Assembly: GCA_004367505.1 (NCBI GenBank) | Contig: SFCB01000218.1 | Coordinates: forward strand, 1 to 32,809 | Direction: 5' to 3' | Source of the DNA: Chloroflexi bacterium OHK40 | GTDB lineage: Bacteria; Chloroflexota; Chloroflexia; Chloroflexales; Chloroflexaceae | Length of the DNA: 32,809 nt | Shown: one piece after another, positions 8,517 to 30,214 of the stretch | Layout: the number at the start of each line of letters is the position of its first letter | Position numbering within the stretch: position 1 is the stretch's first letter | Notes under the pieces: generated by a model | Told to the model about the DNA's origin: nothing | Database searches by the model: none | Seen by the model: the letters and a program-made list of their open reading frames with translations, nothing else | Program-made: the position numbers and the translations under genes

Positions 8517-9059
8517 GCTACCCTCTTGGAACTAGTTCCCTGTTTATGGCTCCCTTGCCAGCAGTGAGGTAACTATCACCACAAGAAGCGGTGAGGCGCT
8601 GTGGTGCCAACCTTGTCGTCTTCATGGTGACTACCACTCATATGGACCCTGGGCAGAAGGTCACGAAGACCACGCAAAGGGGGCTCCCCTCTGCGATGGG
8701 TCTTTGTTCCACACGAACACCCAAGGGGCGATGACCACGTGTTCATCGTCCCTGGCCGCGAATATGTACCGTTCCGTGTGAGTATCACGAGCATACCACA
8801 CGCGGTCGCAAAAGTACATCCTTTTGCTCAGCAAAGTAGCAGTCACCACCCAGCTTTTCTCGGCCCAGCCAGATCGCCTACCTGCTCTCCGCTGTTCAGC
8901 GCTGTCCTTCTGCTTCGCCACGACATACCCTTCAAGCACCGCGCCTGGCGGCGTCGCTGATGAAGAGGTTCTGTTGGCAGGGCGTGTCGAAGCCGTGGTG
9001 CGGTAGTGACACAGGTGTGGATGCGCGACCGAGGGAGCGTATCCAATGGGGGAGCGACA
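8517..9059. other. Intergenic region holding the displaced LVIVD upstream sequence
   Basis: No convincing gene is seen. A 12-bp perfect palindrome, GGAACTAGTTCC, lies at 8528-8539. Removing the IS brings it to about 40 bp upstream of the LVIVD start codon, so it may be an old operator or promoter element of that gene. A minus-strand frame at about 8661-8960 has plausible composition (RMYFCDRVWYARD) but no credible start and no recognised domain. Confidence 0.4.
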
Positions 9060-20887: not shown

Positions 20888-21361
20888 ATGCTCACATCAG
20901 GAGCTGCTACCGCCATCGAGACCGACAGCCTCAGCATCGTGCAGACTGTCGAGACAGGCCAGGGCGCCCATGGGGTGATGATCGACCCCACAGGCCGGCA
21001 TGCCTACGTCACCAACATTTACGGCAACGATCTCGCCGTGCTGGATCTCGGCGAGCGGCGGGTCGTCGCCACCCTGCCGATAGGAACGGCACCAAACGGG
21101 GTAAGCTTCACCCCCCAGGCGCCGGCCCCCGCTCGGGCAGCCGAGAGCCCGGTCGGGCTTCCGAGCCACACGGAGAACGATGCCCACGACGAGGAGAAAG
21201 CCGACGGCAAGGATCAAGGGAGGCGCCTGCCATCCTGCCTACGCCGAGTAGGCTATTTGGCGGGTACACCCAGGAGCAGACCTCGGTACAATGGACTTAC
21301 TTGTCGAACAGACGTTGTGAAGGGAGTTATGCGATGTACACGTTCAAAGTGCAGGATATGA
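20888..21361 (+). pseudogene. YVTN beta-propeller protein, C-terminal fragment
   Basis: One blade and a half remain: SIVQTVETGQGAHGVMIDPT, then GRHAYVTNIYGNDLAVLDLG and VVATLPIGTAPNGVSFTP. This is the YVTN signature seen in surface or periplasmic propellers. Everything upstream of it (signal peptide and several blades) is missing, and the frame runs on through an acidic His/Asp tail into the next gene. No ribosome site was found before 20888. It is most likely a remnant. Confidence 0.7.
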
Positions 21362-21552
21362 CCTGTGGCGGCTGCGCCTCCTCGGTGCGCAAGGCGGTGT
21401 CGCAGGTGAGTGGTGTCAGCAGCGTCACGGCCGACCCGCAGACCAAGGACGTCGTGGTCGAGGCCAGCCCCGAGGTGACCCGCGAGGCCGTGGTCGCCGC
21501 CATCCAGGATGCCGGCTACAACGAGATCACCGTGGTCGAAACGGCCCGCTAA
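21334..21552 (+). CDS. copZ: Copper chaperone, HMA domain
   Basis: The protein has 72 residues, the normal CopZ length. AAGGGAG lies 7 bases before the ATG. The metal-binding loop is MTCGGCASSV (two Cys in the CxxC arrangement), followed by the two helices and the closing AIQDAGYNEITVVE. HMA chaperones carry Cu(I) to CopA and buffer it in the cytosol. The CopA gene follows after a terminator and a 179-base gap, so the two can be expressed at different levels. No stretch of MerR or CsoR operator was found upstream. Confidence 0.93.
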   Translation: MYTFKVQDMTCGGCASSVRKAVSQVSGVSSVTADPQTKDVVVEASPEVTREAVVAAIQDAGYNEITVVETAR

Positions 21553-21604: not shown

Positions 21605-21731
21605 TTCTTGTGCTGGCCTAGCTGAAGATGAAAATGCTTAGTAGCGGTAGGTGATCTGGCGGGTGTGCAGGCGAATGTGCTGCGGTACGATAGGTTTGAA
21701 CACCTACGATCTGTTGATGAAGGAGCATGTA

Positions 21732-24284
21732 ATGGCTCAACAGCAGCTAACCCTTCCCGTCACCGGGATGACTTGTGCGAGCTGCTCTACCCGTGTGGAG
21801 CGCGGCCTGAAGAAGACGCCGGGCGTCGAGAGCGCCGAGGTCAATCTCGCCACCGAGCAGGCCACTGTCACCTACGACCCCCAGCAGGTGCAGCCCCAGC
21901 AGCTGGTGGCCGCGGTTGAGGCGGCCGGCTACGGGGTGATCTCGGAGCAGCTGGAGTTGCCGATCACCGGGATGACCTGTGCGAGCTGCTCGACCCGCGT
22001 CGAGAAGGCCCTGCGTAAGGCTCCCGGTGTGCTGGAGGCTAGCGTGAATCTGGCGACCGAGCGGGCCACCGTGACGATCGCGCCCGGCGTTGCCGACCTT
22101 AGCACGCTCACGGCTGCCGTCGAAGCGGCCGGCTACGGCGTGATCGCCCCAGCTGCCGAGGAGGCTGACGAGGAGAGCGAGGACGCCGAGACGCTAGCCC
22201 GCCGCGCCGAGCTGAACGACAAGCGCCGCAAGCTTATCGTCGCGATCGCCTTCGGCCTGCCGCTGTTCCTGCTCTCGATGGCCCGCGACTTCGGGCTGAT
22301 TGCCCCCTGGTTTGTCGGCGCCGCCCGCCAGATGATGGACCAGATGCCTGGTGCGAGCATGACTGAGATGATGCAGCACGTCGCCGCCCACGACGACCTG
22401 CTCAACTGGCTGTTCCTCGCCCTTGCCACGCCGGTGCAGTTCTTCTCGGGGCGCGACTTCTATGTCCACGCCTGGAAGGCGCTAAAGGCCCGCACGGCGA
22501 ATATGGATACCCTGATCGCGCTCGGCTCGTCGGCGGCGTATTTCTATAGCCTGTGGCTGCTACTCGCCGGGCTCGGCGGCCATGTCTATTTCGAGACGGC
22601 GGCGGTGATCATCGCGCTGATCCTGGTGGGCAAGTTTCTTGAGGCCCGTGCCAAGAGCCAGACGAGTGCCGCCATTAAAGCGCTGATGGGCCTGCAGGCG
22701 AAAACCGCTCGCGTGCTGCGCGGCGGTGTGGAGACGGACATCCCGTTGGCTCAGGTGCGGGTGGGCGACATCGTGCTCGTGCGCCCTGGCGAGAAGGTGC
22801 CTGTCGATGGGATGCTCACTCAGGGCAGCTCGACCCTGGACGAGAGCATGCTCACGGGCGAGAGCATGCCGGTGCAGAAGAAGGTTGGCGACGCCGTCAT
22901 TGGCGCGACGCTGAACCGCACCGGCTCCTTCCAGTTCCGCGCCACCCGTGTGGGCAAGGATACCGCACTCGCCCAGATCGTGCGGCTAGTTCAGGAGGCC
23001 CAGGGCTCGAAGGCCCCCGTGCAGCGCCTGGTCGATCAGGTCTCGGCGGTGTTTGTGCCGGTGGTGCTCGGCATCGCCCTGGTGACGTTTTTGGCCTGGT
23101 GGTTCGCTACTGGCGACGTGACCCAGGCCCTGATCTTCGCGGTGGCTGTGCTGGTGATCGCCTGCCCCTGTGCGCTCGGCCTGGCGACCCCGACGGCGAT
23201 CATGGTCGGCACGGGCACAGGCGCGCAGCACGGCATCCTGATCAAGAACGCAGAGGCGCTGGAGCGGGCCGGCAAACTCACCACCGTGGTCTTCGACAAA
23301 ACGGGTACGATCACTCAGGGCCAGCCCGCCGTGACCGATGTGGTGACGAGCGGCGACGAGGCCGAGTTGCTGCGGTTGGCGGGCAGCGTCGAGCGCGGCT
23401 CCGAGCATCCCCTTGGCGAAGCGGTGGTGCGGGCGGCGCAAGACCGTGGACTGACCCTGGCCCACCCGAAGGGGTTCGCTGCCATCGCCGGTCACGGCGT
23501 GCAGGCCACGGTGGACGGACGCACGCTGATGATCGGCTCGCCGCGCCTGATGCTTGAGTCGGGCATTCAACTTGGCGGGCTGGAGGGAGCGGTCGAGCGG
23601 CTGCAAGGCGAGGCGAAGACGGCGGTCGTGGTGGCTGCAGACGGGCAGGCCCTGGGCGTGCTGGGCATCGCCGACCCGGTCAAGTCCACCTCGGCCGAGG
23701 CGATCGCGGCCCTTACCCGTCAGGGCGTGCAGGTGCTGATGCTCACCGGCGATAACCGGCGCACGGCCGAGGCGATCGGGCGCCAGGTGGGCCTTGTCCC
23801 CGCACAGGTGGTGGCCGAGGTGCTGCCCGAGATGAAGGCGGCCGAGGTCAAGCGGGTGCAGGGCGAGGGCCGTGTGGTGGCGATGGTGGGTGACGGTATC
23901 AACGACGCGCCGGCGCTGGCCCAGGCCGACGTGGGCATCGCGATGGGCACGGGCACGGATGTGGCGATGGAGACAGCCGACGTCACCCTGCTGCGGGGCG
24001 ACCTGCGCTCGGTGCCGCAGGCCATCCAGTTGAGCCGCAGAACGATGCGTACCATCCGCTGGAACCTGTTCTGGGCCTTCATCTACAACGTGATTGGCAT
24101 CCCGCTGGCCGCCGGTATCTTCTACCCGCTGCTCGGCTGGCAGCTTTCGCCGATCTACGCCGCCGCCGCTATGGCCTTCTCCTCGGTCTTCGTCGTCAGC
24201 AACTCGTTGCGCCTGCGTGGCTTGAAGCTGGAGCAGCCGGTGCGAACCGCGGCACCCCGGCGCGAGGTCGCCTCAGCGACGTAG
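21732..24284 (+). CDS. copA: Cu(I)-exporting P1B-type ATPase with two N-terminal HMA domains
   Basis: The protein has 850 residues from the ATG at 21732, with AAGGAG 7 bases upstream; the longer frame to 21651 lacks a site. Two HMA domains each carry [12 protein letters not shown]. The core shows LTGES (actuator), the membrane metal site CPC in [21 protein letters not shown] (phosphorylated Asp), [10 protein letters not shown], and [20 protein letters not shown]. The last helix carries [16 protein letters not shown]. An outer loop after the first helix is Met-rich (MMDQMP, then [13 protein letters not shown]), a likely exit site for copper. CopA exports Cu(I) from the cytosol with ATP. Confidence 0.97.
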
Positions 24285-24312
24285 CGGTCGGCACGTTCGA
24301 GGTGGGGAGATG

Positions 24313-24336
24313 GGGCGCGCTGTGGCGAGCGCGCCC
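24313..24336 (+). terminator. Possible terminator hairpin after copA
   Basis: GGGCGCGCT (24313-24321) pairs perfectly with AGCGCGCCC (24328-24336), loop of six, followed by TACGTTT. It lies 28 bases after copA and 24 before the next start; the T-tract is weak. Confidence 0.5.
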
Positions 24337-24360
24337 TACGTTTGGGTAGAGGAGTCAACG

Positions 24361-24879
24361 ATGAGTGAACTTGATACTTTCCGCGCGGCCAAGGACCGCT
24401 TCTTCAAGGAGCACCCTGAGAGCCCGCTAACAGCCGAGCAGCGCGACGGCTTCACGGGACTGCGCTATTTCCCCGAGAACCCTGCCCTGCGCCTCACGCT
24501 GCCAGTTGAGCCCGCTGAGGGCGAGCCAACCCTGGTGATGCAGACCTCGACCGGGGAAAGTTACAGCTACGAACGTGTGGGGCAGCTCCGCTTCACTGTA
24601 GATGGCCAGGAGGCGGCGCTCACCCTCTTCGCCGACGAGGCCGGCGGGCTCTTTCTGCCGTTCGCCGACGCCCTCGCCGGCAGCGAAACCTATGGCGCCG
24701 GGCGCTACCTGGAGCCGCAGCCGCTGGAGGGAGGGCGTGCACTGATCGACTTCAACCTGGCGTACAACCCCTACTGCGCCTACAACGACGACTGGTCCTG
24801 CCCGCTTACGCCCTTCGAGAACCGGCTGCGGGTCGCGATCCGCGCTGGCGAGCGGCTCTATAACGAGCCAGTCGCATGA
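24361..24879 (+). CDS. DUF1684-family protein
   Basis: The protein has 172 residues, with AGAGGAG before the ATG at 24361. It begins with an FRAAKDRFFKEHPESPL motif and continues GLRYFPENPALRL. It ends with the family block FNLAYNPYCAYNDDWSC followed by LTPFENRLRVAIRAGE. There is no signal peptide. DUF1684 proteins are widespread and have no settled biochemical role. They often accompany stress or metal genes, which fits its place behind copA. Confidence 0.88.
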   Translation: MSELDTFRAAKDRFFKEHPESPLTAEQRDGFTGLRYFPENPALRLTLPVEPAEGEPTLVMQTSTGESYSYERVGQLRFTVDGQEAALTLFADEAGGLFLPFADALAGSETYGAGRYLEPQPLEGGRALIDFNLAYNPYCAYNDDWSCPLTPFENRLRVAIRAGERLYNEPVA

Positions 24880-25804: not shown

Positions 25805-26776
25805 CTAGCGTGGCGCAAGATACTGCTGGGGTTGGGCAAGGAAGAGGTCGCGGCAGGCTGGCGAGCAGAAGCGGTAGAGCCGGTCGCCGTGTTCGGCGCC
25901 GAGCGCATCGGGGCCAACACTCATACCACAGACCGGGTCGCGGCCATTTTCACCAGGGTAGGGGATCCAGACCGCGAGCCGTGTCCCACGCTCCGGCGCG
26001 CTCGTCACATCTAGCCGGCCGCCGGTCAGCTCGGCGCGCTCGCGCATGCCGCGCAGTCCCCAATGACCATCAGGCGTGTCATGGGCGTCGGGGGGCGCGA
26101 AGCCCACGCCATCGTCCATGATCAATACCCTGAGGCCGCCCTGCGTATAGCCGAACAGAACCTCGACGTGGTGCGCCTTGGCGTGGCGGCGGATGTTGCT
26201 CCAGGCCTCCTGAATAATACGGAACAGGGCCAGTTCGCTCTGCGGCGCCAACCGCCGCTCGTCGCCCTCTACCAGCAGGGACAGCTCTGGCCCGCCCTCG
26301 CTGCCGCGCTGCAGCAGCAGTTCCACGGCCGGTAGCAGCCCCAGCTCTTCCAGGGCCGGCGGGCGCAGGTCGCCGATCACCGTGCGCAGCTCGCCAACCA
26401 GGCCCGTGATGCCGCCACGGATAGCCTGGAGCCGCTCAACGGCAGCTGCAGACTCATCCCGCTCCAGGAGCCGCTGCACACGATCAACGCCGTGGCCGAG
26501 GGCGATCAACTGCTGCACCACCTCATCGTGCAGCTCGCGGGCGATGCGGCCCCGCTCTGCCTCCTGGGCTGTGCTCAAGGCTGCGATGTAGGCGTGCTGG
26601 TGCTGCAGCCCCTGTTTGGTGTGGGCGCCTAGCACATCGATCGCGCGGCGCAGATCCTCGACCGCTGGCACGTCGCTCAATGACCGCCCGAGGTCTGCGA
26701 GCTCGCCGCGGACCAGCTGCTCGGCACGCTGCTGGAGCGCACGCAACAGTGCCTCGTCAATAACGATCTCGGCCAT
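25805..26776 (-). CDS. Soluble NarL-type sensor histidine kinase with C-terminal YHS metal-binding domain
   Basis: The protein has 323 residues and no membrane helix. Residues 1-65 are helical, then the HisKA_3 phospho-acceptor: EAERGRIARELHDEVVQQLI with His83. The ATPase domain follows, with NIRRHAKAHHVEVL (N-box) and DDGVGFAPP (G1), then GHWGLRGMRERAELTGGRL. The last ~44 residues form a YHS domain: DPVCGMSV, then YRFCSPACRDLFLAQPQQYL, with C283, C304 and C308. YHS domains bind copper or other soft metals and are usually found on CopA or alone. Fused to a kinase it is a likely metal sensor, inferred here. The gene starts 13 bases after the response regulator and forms an operon with it. Confidence 0.93.
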   Translation of the reverse strand: MAEIVIDEALLRALQQRAEQLVRGELADLGRSLSDVPAVEDLRRAIDVLGAHTKQGLQHQHAYIAALSTAQEAERGRIARELHDEVVQQLIALGHGVDRVQRLLERDESAAAVERLQAIRGGITGLVGELRTVIGDLRPPALEELGLLPAVELLLQRGSEGGPELSLLVEGDERRLAPQSELALFRIIQEAWSNIRRHAKAHHVEVLFGYTQGGLRVLIMDDGVGFAPPDAHDTPDGHWGLRGMRERAELTGGRLDVTSAPERGTRLAVWIPYPGENGRDPVCGMSVGPDALGAEHGDRLYRFCSPACRDLFLAQPQQYLAPR

Positions 26777-26789
26777 CGGGTGCTCCCTT

Positions 26790-27434
26790 CTATTTGCTCA
26801 GCGTGATCAGGTTGCGCTCCAGCGCAGCAGTGACCGCCTCGGTGCGTGAGGCAACGCCCAACTTGCCGTAGATGTTCGCCAAATGGTTCTGCACCGTGCG
26901 GTCGCTGATCTGGAGTGCGGCACCAATCTGCTTGTTGGTCTGCCCACGCGCCGCCAGGCGCAACACGTCGAGCTCACGCTCGGTTAGGGCATCGACCGGG
27001 GATGTCGGCCGAGTGAGGCGGGCGATCAGGCGTGGCGCCACGGCCGGGTCGATCACCGCCTGCCCCTCGGCGGTGGCTCGCACCGCGCGCACGATCTCGC
27101 CGCCCTCGGCGGTTTTGAGCAGGTAGCCGGAGGCGCCGGCGTCGAGCAGGCCATAGATGTAGGGGTCGTCCTGGTACGAGGTGAGCACCAGCACGCGCAC
27201 GTCGGGGGCAGCCGCGCGGATCTGGCGCGTGGCCTCCACACCCGAGAGCTCGGGCATGTGGATGTCCATCACCACCACGTCCGGCCGTTCGCGCAGCGCG
27301 AGCTCGACGGCCTCCTGGCCGTTGCGGGCCTCGCTGACGACCAGGATATCCGGCTCATCGCTCAACAGGTCGCGGATGCCGGCGCGCACCACCTTGTGGT
27401 CGTCGGCCACAATCACGCGGATGGTTTGTCCCAT
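26790..27434 (-). CDS. NarL/FixJ-family response regulator
   Basis: The protein has 214 residues from the ATG at 27434 (CTGGAG upstream). The receiver has the acidic pair D11-D12, the phosphorylated D57 in VVVMDIHMPELSG, and K in SGYLLKTAEG. The C-terminal half is a LuxR-type helix-turn-helix: LTERELDVLRLAARGQTNKQ then ISDRTVQNHLANIYGKLGV. It is encoded just before the YHS kinase and is its cognate regulator. Likely targets are copper genes in the neighbourhood. The decayed receiver at 9060-9387 is a close relative. Confidence 0.95.
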   Translation of the reverse strand: MGQTIRVIVADDHKVVRAGIRDLLSDEPDILVVSEARNGQEAVELALRERPDVVVMDIHMPELSGVEATRQIRAAAPDVRVLVLTSYQDDPYIYGLLDAGASGYLLKTAEGGEIVRAVRATAEGQAVIDPAVAPRLIARLTRPTSPVDALTERELDVLRLAARGQTNKQIGAALQISDRTVQNHLANIYGKLGVASRTEAVTAALERNLITLSK

Positions 27435-27467: not shown

Positions 27468-28133
27468 CTATTGTAGGTCGAATGCGGCCTCGGTGCAGGT
27501 GCAGTCTTCACCGCAGAGTCGGGGCGACTGCGTGAGTGTCCGCCGCCGCGCGATGAAGCAGCGCCAGCAGGGGTTGAGCCGCGTGTGGTTCGCGCACGCC
27601 AGGGGCAGGTCGAGCAGATAGGCGCCGGCCAGGGAGCGCTCCGTTTCGTCGCGAGCGGCGAGGGCGGCCCGCCCGTCGGACAGGAACGAGAGTCGCCCGA
27701 CCGGCCGAAATCCAGCACGTTGGATGCCCTGGGCGGACGGACTGTTCTCTGGTGCGTGGGCGATCCAGAAGCGTGATGCTCTCTCTGCGGTCATAATCGC
27801 CTGTAGTAGGCGCGGGTAGAGACCCTGCCCACGCCACTCAGGGAGGGTGGCGAAATCCCACAGGTAACGAGTCCCGGTCGGCAGCGTGAAGGCCAGTTGC
27901 AGCTCGCCGATCTCCGCCTCAGCCTCTGCAACCCAGCCATAAGCCACAGATGAGCTCCCCACGCGAGCGACGTAGCAGCGGTGGCCCTGGTCGAAACGCT
28001 GGTGCACAGTTGCCGCGCTGAGCTGAGCCAGCTGGGCAATTCGTAGCTGATCGCGCTCGGGGAACACGGAAAAGCTGTGTATCGACGGTAACGGCGTCTG
28101 CGGGTCCTCCTCCCACCACGTCCACAGGCCCAT
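27468..28133 (-). CDS. GNAT-family acetyltransferase with a Cys-rich tail
   Basis: The protein has 221 residues from the ATG at 28133, with AGGAGGT 4 bases upstream. The frame is open to 28238 but that start lacks a site. The acetyl-CoA loop appears as LPEWRGQGLYPRLLQAIM, followed by SAQGIQRAGFRPVGRL. A C-terminal extension of about 40 residues carries CWRC and CGEDCTC, five cysteines that could bind a metal such as zinc or copper. It lies 33 bases before the response regulator and probably forms an operon with the YHS kinase. The substrate is unknown. Confidence 0.85.
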   Translation of the reverse strand: MGLWTWWEEDPQTPLPSIHSFSVFPERDQLRIAQLAQLSAATVHQRFDQGHRCYVARVGSSSVAYGWVAEAEAEIGELQLAFTLPTGTRYLWDFATLPEWRGQGLYPRLLQAIMTAERASRFWIAHAPENSPSAQGIQRAGFRPVGRLSFLSDGRAALAARDETERSLAGAYLLDLPLACANHTRLNPCWRCFIARRRTLTQSPRLCGEDCTCTEAAFDLQ

Positions 28134-28234
28134 ACGTACCTCCTCTGGTGTATACAAGCACCGTATGGGAGCAGCAGTGCTGTGTCCAGAGGCGGATCGC
28201 TCATAGGTACATAGGCCAAATGGCGGGTTGAACC

Positions 28235-28764: not shown

Positions 28765-28999
28765 TTATACGGTAATATAGAGTCAACCCGCACGGTTGCG
28801 GGTGGAGGTCAGGTCGCTCCTGGCTCCGTCGCCTATCTGGAGCAGCGCTTTCTAAATCTTTCGGCGCGACCGATGAATGCAGACCGCACGCTCCAGATGG
28901 AGGTCCTGGGCAAACCAACCATTAGAGGGTCGTGCCTTTCTGAGCACTCGGTATAAGAACTTGCTCCCCCCAGGACGTTGCTGTTACGGGAGGTGTGTC
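28765..28999 (+). other. Non-coding left flank of the IS110 gene; possible bridge-RNA locus
   Basis: IS110-group elements carry a structured guide (bridge) RNA in the non-coding end, usually upstream of the transposase. This 235-bp stretch has a small hairpin (ACCCGCA 28786-28792 with TGCGGGT 28797-28803, loop CGGT) and no clear gene. The IS110 boundary inside it could not be found by eye. Confidence 0.35.
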
Positions 29000-30214
29000 A
29001 TGTGGTACGCCGGCATTGATTGGGCCGATGATCATCATGATGCGGTCGTTCTTGACCACGAGGGGCAACTGCTTACCACGCTGCGGGTTGCCCATAGCGT
29101 CACTGGCTTGGCAGAGCTGACCACGGCATTGACACGCATCACCGGGCCTGATGCCAAAGACCAACTGTCTTGCATCGTCGAAACCAACCACGGCTTGTTG
29201 ATTACGGCCTTGTTGGAAGCGGGCTTCGCGGTCTATCCGGTCAACCCCAAGACGGTCAATCGTCGACGCGGTGCGGCAGGTGCGAAAACCGACCAGATTG
29301 ACGCCTATCTCTTGGCGAAACTTGGCCGCAGCGACCTGGCTGACTTACGGCGCTTGGTCCCCGACAGCCCGGTAGTGCAGGAGTTGAAGGCGTTGACGCG
29401 TGATCAGGATGGGCTGATTCAGAGCCAGACCCGGCTGCTCAACCAGCTCACCGCCTGCCTGAAAGCCTACTACCCGGTCGCGCTGCTGCTCTTCAGCAAG
29501 CTCCACCAGCCCTCGGCCCTGGCTTTTTTGCGGGCCTACCCCAAGCCCGAGGCGGCCCGTACCGCCACCCAAGCCGACATCTTGCAGACCCTCCTCGCGG
29601 CGGGCCACACCCGCACCGCTCAGGTCGTGCCCAAGATCTGGCAGCGCCTTCAGCAGCCTGCCCTCAGTGCAGATGCGGTGACGACCCGCACCAAGGCGCG
29701 TTTGATGCTGGCCCTGGTTGCCCAACTCGAGCCGCTTCTGGCGCAGATCGCCGCCTATGACGAGGAGATCACGCGCCTGTTTGTGAGTCACGCCGATCAC
29801 GCTCTGTTTGCGAGTCTGCCACGGGCAGGGCGGCGCCTGGCACCGCGACTGTTGGCGGAAATTGGCGATGACCGTGGTCGGTATGACGATGCTGTGGGGT
29901 TGCAAGCCGTGGCGGGCACTGCGCCAGTGATGTTCCAAAGCGGTGCGTATGCCAAGGCCCATCGGCGCTGGGCCTGTATGAAACCCTTGCGCAATGCCTT
30001 GCAGTTGTTCGCCTGGCAATCGACCCTTGAGGAAGCCTGGGCGCTGCACTACTACCAGCAGAAACGTGCGACCGGGAAGAGCCACGCGATGGCCGTACGG
30101 GCATTGGCCAACGTCTGGGTACGGATCATCTACGCGATGTGGCGCGACAGGAAGCCCTATCAGGCGCAGACCTTTATCGGAGCACAACAGCAGCATCAGC
30201 GACAAGCCGCCTAA
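29000..30214 (+). CDS. IS110-family transposase (DEDD)
   Basis: The protein has 404 residues from the ATG at 29000, with GGGAGG 6 bases upstream. The N-terminal RuvC-like domain shows the four acidic residues D7 (GIDWADDHHD), E61 (CIVETNHG), D98 and D101 (KTDQIDAYLLA). The C-terminal transposase-20 domain has SLPRAGRRLAPRLLAEIGD and AVAGTAPVMFQSGAYAKAHR with the Ser nucleophile. This family recombines by an RNA-guided (bridge RNA) mechanism. The gene looks intact. Other IS110 genes usually sit alone; here it is enclosed by another element's repeats. Confidence 0.95.
   Translation: MWYAGIDWADDHHDAVVLDHEGQLLTTLRVAHSVTGLAELTTALTRITGPDAKDQLSCIVETNHGLLITALLEAGFAVYPVNPKTVNRRRGAAGAKTDQIDAYLLAKLGRSDLADLRRLVPDSPVVQELKALTRDQDGLIQSQTRLLNQLTACLKAYYPVALLLFSKLHQPSALAFLRAYPKPEAARTATQADILQTLLAAGHTRTAQVVPKIWQRLQQPALSADAVTTRTKARLMLALVAQLEPLLAQIAAYDEEITRLFVSHADHALFASLPRAGRRLAPRLLAEIGDDRGRYDDAVGLQAVAGTAPVMFQSGAYAKAHRRWACMKPLRNALQLFAWQSTLEEAWALHYYQQKRATGKSHAMAVRALANVWVRIIYAMWRDRKPYQAQTFIGAQQQHQRQAA

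Follow-up and report, generated by a model that had tools for sequence, protein, structure and literature searches.

A soluble histidine kinase with a C-terminal YHS domain as a candidate sensor of cytosolic copper in Chloroflexales

An operon of Chloroflexi bacterium OHK40 encodes a NarL-type response regulator and a soluble sensor histidine kinase that ends in a YHS domain. The pair is probably a cytosolic two-component copper sensor in which the YHS tail senses copper and the regulator activates copZ and copA through a shared promoter box. The operon lies in the window, by which is meant the whole stretch of 32,809 nucleotides that was analysed (contig SFCB01000218.1), and the features of interest are collected in Table 1. 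In the proposed mechanism cytosolic copper would be bound by D280, C283, C304 and C308 of the YHS tail, and this binding would alter the kinase (or phosphatase) activity at His83. The kinase would phosphorylate the NarL-type regulator, and the phosphorylated regulator would in turn bind the box TAGGCYATYTGGCGGRTA, centred near -41 in place of a -35 element, and switch on the genes for the copper chaperone (copZ) and the exporter (copA). In several genomes the regulator would also act at a box upstream of its own operon. Copper is the predicted ligand of the kinase and activation the predicted sign of the copper response, both as read from sequence.

Table 1. Positions in the window of the kinase with its domains, the genes of the two operons and the promoter elements.
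Feature	Position	Strand	Basis
Soluble sensor histidine kinase with C-terminal YHS, 323 aa	25805..26776	-	ORF, Pfam, 12 further full-length homologues aligned
HAMP-like N-terminal segment, residues ~11-60	26597..26746	-	Pfam HAMP, L104 alignment
HisKA_3 dimerisation/phosphoacceptor domain, His83 in RELHDE	26351..26557	-	Pfam, residues 74-142, 56 bits
HATPase_c, N/G1/G2 boxes (N194, DDGVGF, GLRGMRERAELTGG)	25958..26236	-	Pfam, residues 181-273, 44.3 bits
YHS, predicted metal ligands D280, C283, C304, C308	25814..25939	-	Pfam, residues 280-321, conservation, fold
NarL-type response regulator (receiver + GerE/LuxR HTH)	26790..27434, from first good ATG	-	Pfam Response_reg + GerE
GNAT acetyltransferase	27468..28133	-	Pfam
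copZ-like HMA chaperone, 72 aa, CGGC motif	21334..21552	+	Pfam HMA; start from RBS + ATG
CopA, P1B-1 Cu(I) ATPase	21732..24284	+	Pfam, NCBIfam, motifs
DUF1684 protein, downstream of copA	24310..24879	+	Pfam
Box TAGGCTATTTGGCGGGTA upstream of copZ	21249..21266	+	
-10 hexamer TACAAT, copZ promoter, 20 bp after box	21287..21292	+	
Box TAGGTGATCTGGCGGGTG upstream of copA	21648..21665	+	
-10 hexamer TACGAT, copA promoter, 20 bp after box	21686..21691	+	
Box TAGGCCAAATGGCGGGTT upstream of GNAT-regulator-kinase operon	28212..28229	+	

Both its domains and its partner regulator place the protein among the HisKA_3 sensor histidine kinases (HPK7, the DesK/NarX/NreB group). H83 is invariant in an alignment of 13 members, the best PDB matches of the kinase structure are VraS and DesK (Z 17-20), and the HATPase_c region is itself a structural match to DesK/VraS. 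The initial annotation had described HisKA_3 and ATPase domains followed by a YHS domain with three cysteines, no membrane helix and a NarL-type regulator in the same operon, and all of these features were borne out. The domain architecture was recovered by Pfam, by the 13-member family and by the fold match. A hydropathy scan of the kinase found no membrane segment, the highest 19-residue KD mean being 0.95, and the open frame measures only 330 aa from stop to stop, so that no upstream helix has been missed. The cysteines of the 323-residue protein are exactly C283, C304 and C308, with none outside the YHS tail, and Pfam detected no PAS domain. The regulator (Response_reg and GerE) lies upstream, its stop 13 bp from the kinase start, and the same order of regulator and then kinase is repeated in the related loci with sufficient flanking sequence. 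A GNAT gene 33 bp upstream of the regulator is probably the first gene of the operon, in the window genome only; no GNAT homologue was found at the other kinase loci. An IS110-type transposase gene (window 28877-30214) adjoins this operon.

The tail of the kinase is a YHS domain. As a single sequence it scores narrowly above the gathering cut-off of PF04945 (31.6 against 30.3 bits), and all 13 aligned members match the model at E <= 0.001, with a best E of 4.3e-11. The tail carries the pattern DPxCxM...FC...C, and a linker of about 7 residues separates it from the ATP-binding domain. D280, C283, C304 and C308 are invariant in 13 full-length kinases from 12 Chloroflexales genomes, and in 12 of the 13 the equivalents of the three cysteines are the sole cysteines of the protein. 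An AlphaFold model of the isolated tail (pLDDT 83.6) found its best PDB match in the YHS region of TouA, from the toluene/o-xylene monooxygenase hydroxylase (3rng, Z 6.1, rmsd 2.5, 47 residues), the modest Z reflecting the small size of the YHS domain; the ribosomal TRASH protein L24e was found lower among the matches, at about Z 4. From the conserved ligand residues the tail is predicted to bind a transition metal. Metal binding is not universal among YHS domains, that of toluene monooxygenase being empty in the crystal (PMC4626032).

A match to the kinase is present in 13 of the 158 genomes of the same class, spread over three families (f1, f3 and f4), with Chloroflexales and Roseiflexaceae MAGs and Kouleothrix aurantiaca as the named carriers. 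A further contig of the window genome carries a second copy of the kinase, accompanied by a regulator of its own. Full-length Chloroflexales members score E 1e-37 or better with the kinase query, and a search of 843 genomes from three further phyla, those to which a Pseudoduganella, a Frankiales and an Edaphobacter locus belong (398, 296 and 149 genomes), gave no match at E <= 1e-13, the query having been built from this HisKA_3 family such that YHS on other kinase classes would escape it. A plasmid collection gave 249 kinase matches, and the YHS fusion was not seen among the matches listed; three of these, from two lineages, reach the last residue of the query, and the annotated one (H11) overruns the kinase stop. 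Other matches to GRDPVCGM in public genomes place YHS on CopA, XdhC, CusB-like, permease and glycosyltransferase-like proteins, with no kinases among them. One Chloroflexota match covering most of the query (L119) was rejected as a kinase, being an ABC ATPase with YHS; this protein (L119:961-1806, another Chloroflexota genome) is a MacB/LolD type ABC-transporter ATPase with the YHS domain at its C-terminus. The window genome also encodes an XdhC/CoxI-like maturation protein with a C-terminal YHS (L003:679-1632, contig C269), and similar fusions occur in other Chloroflexota and in Vicinamibacteria (L054, L059, L100, L120). Two outcomes named at the outset as contrary to the reading of the initial annotation were looked for, namely a tail other than YHS and a widespread combination unlinked to metals; the tail is YHS, and the fusion was found only in Chloroflexales and is tied to copper.

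The link to copper is visible in the window itself, where a copZ-copA-DUF1684 group is convergent with the GNAT-regulator-kinase operon. CopA has two CASC HMA domains and the CPC, YNx4P and MxxSS motifs, the P1B-1 copper signatures. In two families a DUF1684 gene lies directly 3' of copA (in the window and at L092:748-1290, genome G062), and a copper-linked role of DUF1684 is possible. Among the 11 kinase loci with enough flanking sequence, six have a copper-type P1B ATPase gene within about 6 kb: the window, G001, G029 (on both sides), G050 (divergent from the regulator), G062 and G070. Given the number of copper ATPase genes per genome, at least six such loci would be expected with a probability of about 8e-10 if the loci were independent, a value that overstates the linkage since the loci are related. 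The orientation and order of kinase and copA differ between the linked loci. Co-occurrence with copA, put forward as a check in the initial annotation, was found in 13/13 kinase-bearing genomes as against 10/25 kinase-lacking ones. Elsewhere in the window genome, contig C225 is a large copper island with four copper-type P-ATPase genes and four YHS matches, at least one of its copA genes having two boxes (L171). The CopA beside the G029 kinase (L086:306-3824) is a 1172-aa ORF with a long C-terminal, apparently extracytoplasmic extension.

Comparison of upstream regions found a shared 18-bp imperfect palindrome, the box introduced above, which was first spotted by eye in these same genomes and was scored with a matrix trained leaving out the genome under test, with 60 shuffles per region. 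Of the 32 copA upstream regions from kinase-bearing genomes, 17 contain a box that scores above all 60 shuffles (one of these, L202, is doubtful); of the 10 from kinase-lacking genomes none does, and none exceeds 7.6 bits. Six genomes outside the training also have the box (G053, G054, G055, G059 and G061, with G051 at p 0.03). Counted by genome, a box precedes copZ/copA in 12/13 kinase-bearing genomes and in 0/9 kinase-lacking genomes with copA (P 2e-5), or in 11/13 kinase-bearing genomes by a strict count (P 2e-4). The kinase-lacking controls all come from family f1, and relatedness on the tree is addressed only by the test within the window's own family, in which the box is present in 3/3 kinase-bearing and 0/9 kinase-lacking genomes (P 0.0045). 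The exact pattern TAGGCYATTTSGCS occurs in five of the 25 kinase-lacking genomes, each time inside a coding gene. No box was found at copA in G052, and several copA copies in kinase-bearing genomes also have none. A TANNNT hexamer lies at offset 38/39 from the box start, a spacing of 20-21 bp, in 15 of 21 boxes, where 0.4 would be expected and the maximum in 2000 shuffles was 5. This fixed spacing to the -10 hexamer places the box near -41, a position from which an activator contacts RNA polymerase and at which the box replaces the -35 element; the copZ and copA promoters of the window both conform to it exactly. The box upstream of the window's GNAT-regulator-kinase operon has no -10 hexamer at the usual spacing in the direction of that operon, and weak boxes at window positions 8863(-) and 10459(+), for which the -10 spacing is missing, were set aside. 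In G070 a DUF305 gene (L091:696-1343) lies directly before copZ-copA and has its own box, which points to a role for DUF305 proteins in copper homeostasis there. Strong boxes at L092:10137-10154 and L088:9164-9181 stand before an MFS-transporter-like gene and behind the paralogous kinase, respectively, and may mark extra members of the regulon.

The co-occurrence of box and kinase suggests that this regulator is the protein that binds the box. The DNA-reading HTH helix of the regulator is nearly invariant across all three families, and this fits a single shared box. Alternatively, the box could serve as operator for another copper regulator of equal distribution, with the YHS pair controlling something else or only itself. 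This is the strongest of the alternatives, although we consider it unlikely. It draws on the fact that the box at the regulator-kinase operon is not universal, being present in some genomes only (the window, L086, L087 and L093), and on the f3 kinase loci, most of which are not beside copA and have phytoene synthase (carotenoid), MerR-B12, YGGT and esterase genes as neighbours. However, in those f3 genomes the box is still directly before the copZ-copA operons, the co-occurrence of box and kinase is strict, also within the window's own family, and the regulator operon is itself preceded by the box in the four loci just named. A dyad near -41 moreover suits a NarL-type activator, and phosphorylated NreC, a regulator of this type, binds a GC-rich palindrome (PMC8139620).

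Only a little less probable is that the pair responds to a soft metal other than copper (Zn, Cd, Ag or Hg), or to metals broadly, with copZ/copA as one output of several. In ribosomal L24e the TRASH/YHS fold binds Cd (PMC4626032), the G050 kinase sits between an ABC-3 importer (Zn/Mn type) and two P-type ATPases, and some of the P-ATPases near the kinase are without CASC repeats. Against this, most of the boxed operons encode CopZ and CopA and show CxxC HMA domains and P1B-1 motifs, and a YHS-bearing cyclase is switched on by copper only (PMC4626032). The initial annotation had taken the kinase for a cytosolic metal sensor, probably for copper; the linkage to copA and the shared box argue for that reading, which would still be one drawn from sequence.

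It is improbable that the tail serves as a structural zinc site, or as a thiol-based redox sensor, and that the kinase answers oxidative stress, with copper as one cause among others. Three conserved cysteines and an aspartate could hold Zn, the related soluble kinase NreB answers O2 via an Fe-S cluster (PMC8139620), and NreBC regulates sulfide oxidation in Bacillus licheniformis (PMC9918477). The visible regulon, however, is one of copper export and not of redox defence, and removal of copper by EDTA abolished the activation of the YHS cyclase, which argues against oxidation (PMC4626032).

The N-terminal segment bears on the origin of the kinase. Pfam HAMP matches it in four of the 13 members, and L104, a kinase of the HAMP type that has two TM segments and comes from a different Chloroflexota family, is 38% identical over kinase residues 11-269. 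The kinase thus looks like the cytoplasmic half of a HAMP-type kinase from which the membrane sensor has gone and to which a YHS tail has been added. DegS-like soluble kinases were considered as ancestors and rejected, their scores falling below that of L104. That the tail is a vestige with no sensory role, the signal entering via the HAMP-like N-terminus or a partner protein, is very improbable: YHS domains do occur on many unrelated proteins, but here the ligand set and the linker are unchanged in all three families, in contrast to other positions, which vary.

The preferred reading remains a copper-sensing phosphorelay. With somewhat less confidence than the sensor function itself, it seems likely that this phosphorelay measures cytosolic copper directly via the YHS domain of the kinase and drives copZ/copA from a site at -41 across Chloroflexales, and that it is the first two-component system that reads copper inside the cell instead of in the periplasm. 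To our knowledge all two-component copper sensors described so far respond to the periplasm, while the cytosolic pool is read by one-component proteins such as CueR, CsoR, CopY and archaeal CopR. If the proposal is true, a phosphorelay reading the cytosolic copper pool would be added to known copper sensing, a small metal module placed behind an ATP-binding domain could create a new sensor, and Chloroflexales would have a defined copper regulon. No earlier description of a YHS- or TRASH-bearing histidine kinase or two-component system was found in the open-access literature. The initial annotation had put the design forward as one not known to have been described. This holds for YHS on a histidine kinase, and it is in this combination that the novelty lies; the individual parts, cytosolic kinases with a cofactor (NreB) and copper sensing by YHS/TRASH, were already known.

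Two-component control of copper export is known from CusS/CopS, membrane kinases that sense periplasmic copper. These have HisKA and OmpR-type regulators, whereas the YHS-tailed kinase has HisKA_3 and a NarL-type regulator; a kinase of the CusS/CopS type was rejected, there being no transmembrane helices or periplasmic sensor. Staphylococcal NreB-NreC likewise combines a soluble HisKA_3-class kinase and a cysteine-bound cofactor with a NarL-type regulator that acts on a GC-rich palindrome, but NreB has an N-terminal PAS domain, four cysteines and a [4Fe-4S] cluster that senses O2, serves nitrate respiration and is without YHS (PMC8139620). The identification of the present kinase as NreB was rejected, as it has neither PAS nor any cysteine beyond the YHS tail. 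The Myxococcus CorE sigma factors are also cytosolic and carry a C-terminal cysteine-rich copper-sensing extension on a transcription factor; CorE is an ECF sigma factor, however, with a cysteine-rich domain not known to be YHS and with no phosphorelay (PMC8999054). Archaeal CopR/CopT, for example CopR of Pyrococcus furiosus, is likewise a cytosolic TRASH-type sensor controlling copA, but its C-terminal TRASH domain is on a one-component HTH protein, whereas the protein described here is a kinase that carries the sensor itself and would act via a phosphorelay (PMC7830388). A close parallel in the tail is the class IIIc adenylyl cyclase of Mycobacterium phlei, which is activated by Cu2+ at 1-10 uM and not by other transition metals (Linder 2015, PMC4626032). 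Its Asp and three Cys are the inferred copper ligands and its YHS follows an 8-residue linker, so that it shares with the kinase a C-terminal YHS, a short linker, a soluble signalling enzyme and the identical set of Asp and three Cys; unlike the kinase, the cyclase makes cAMP and has no regulator and no known regulon (PMC4626032).
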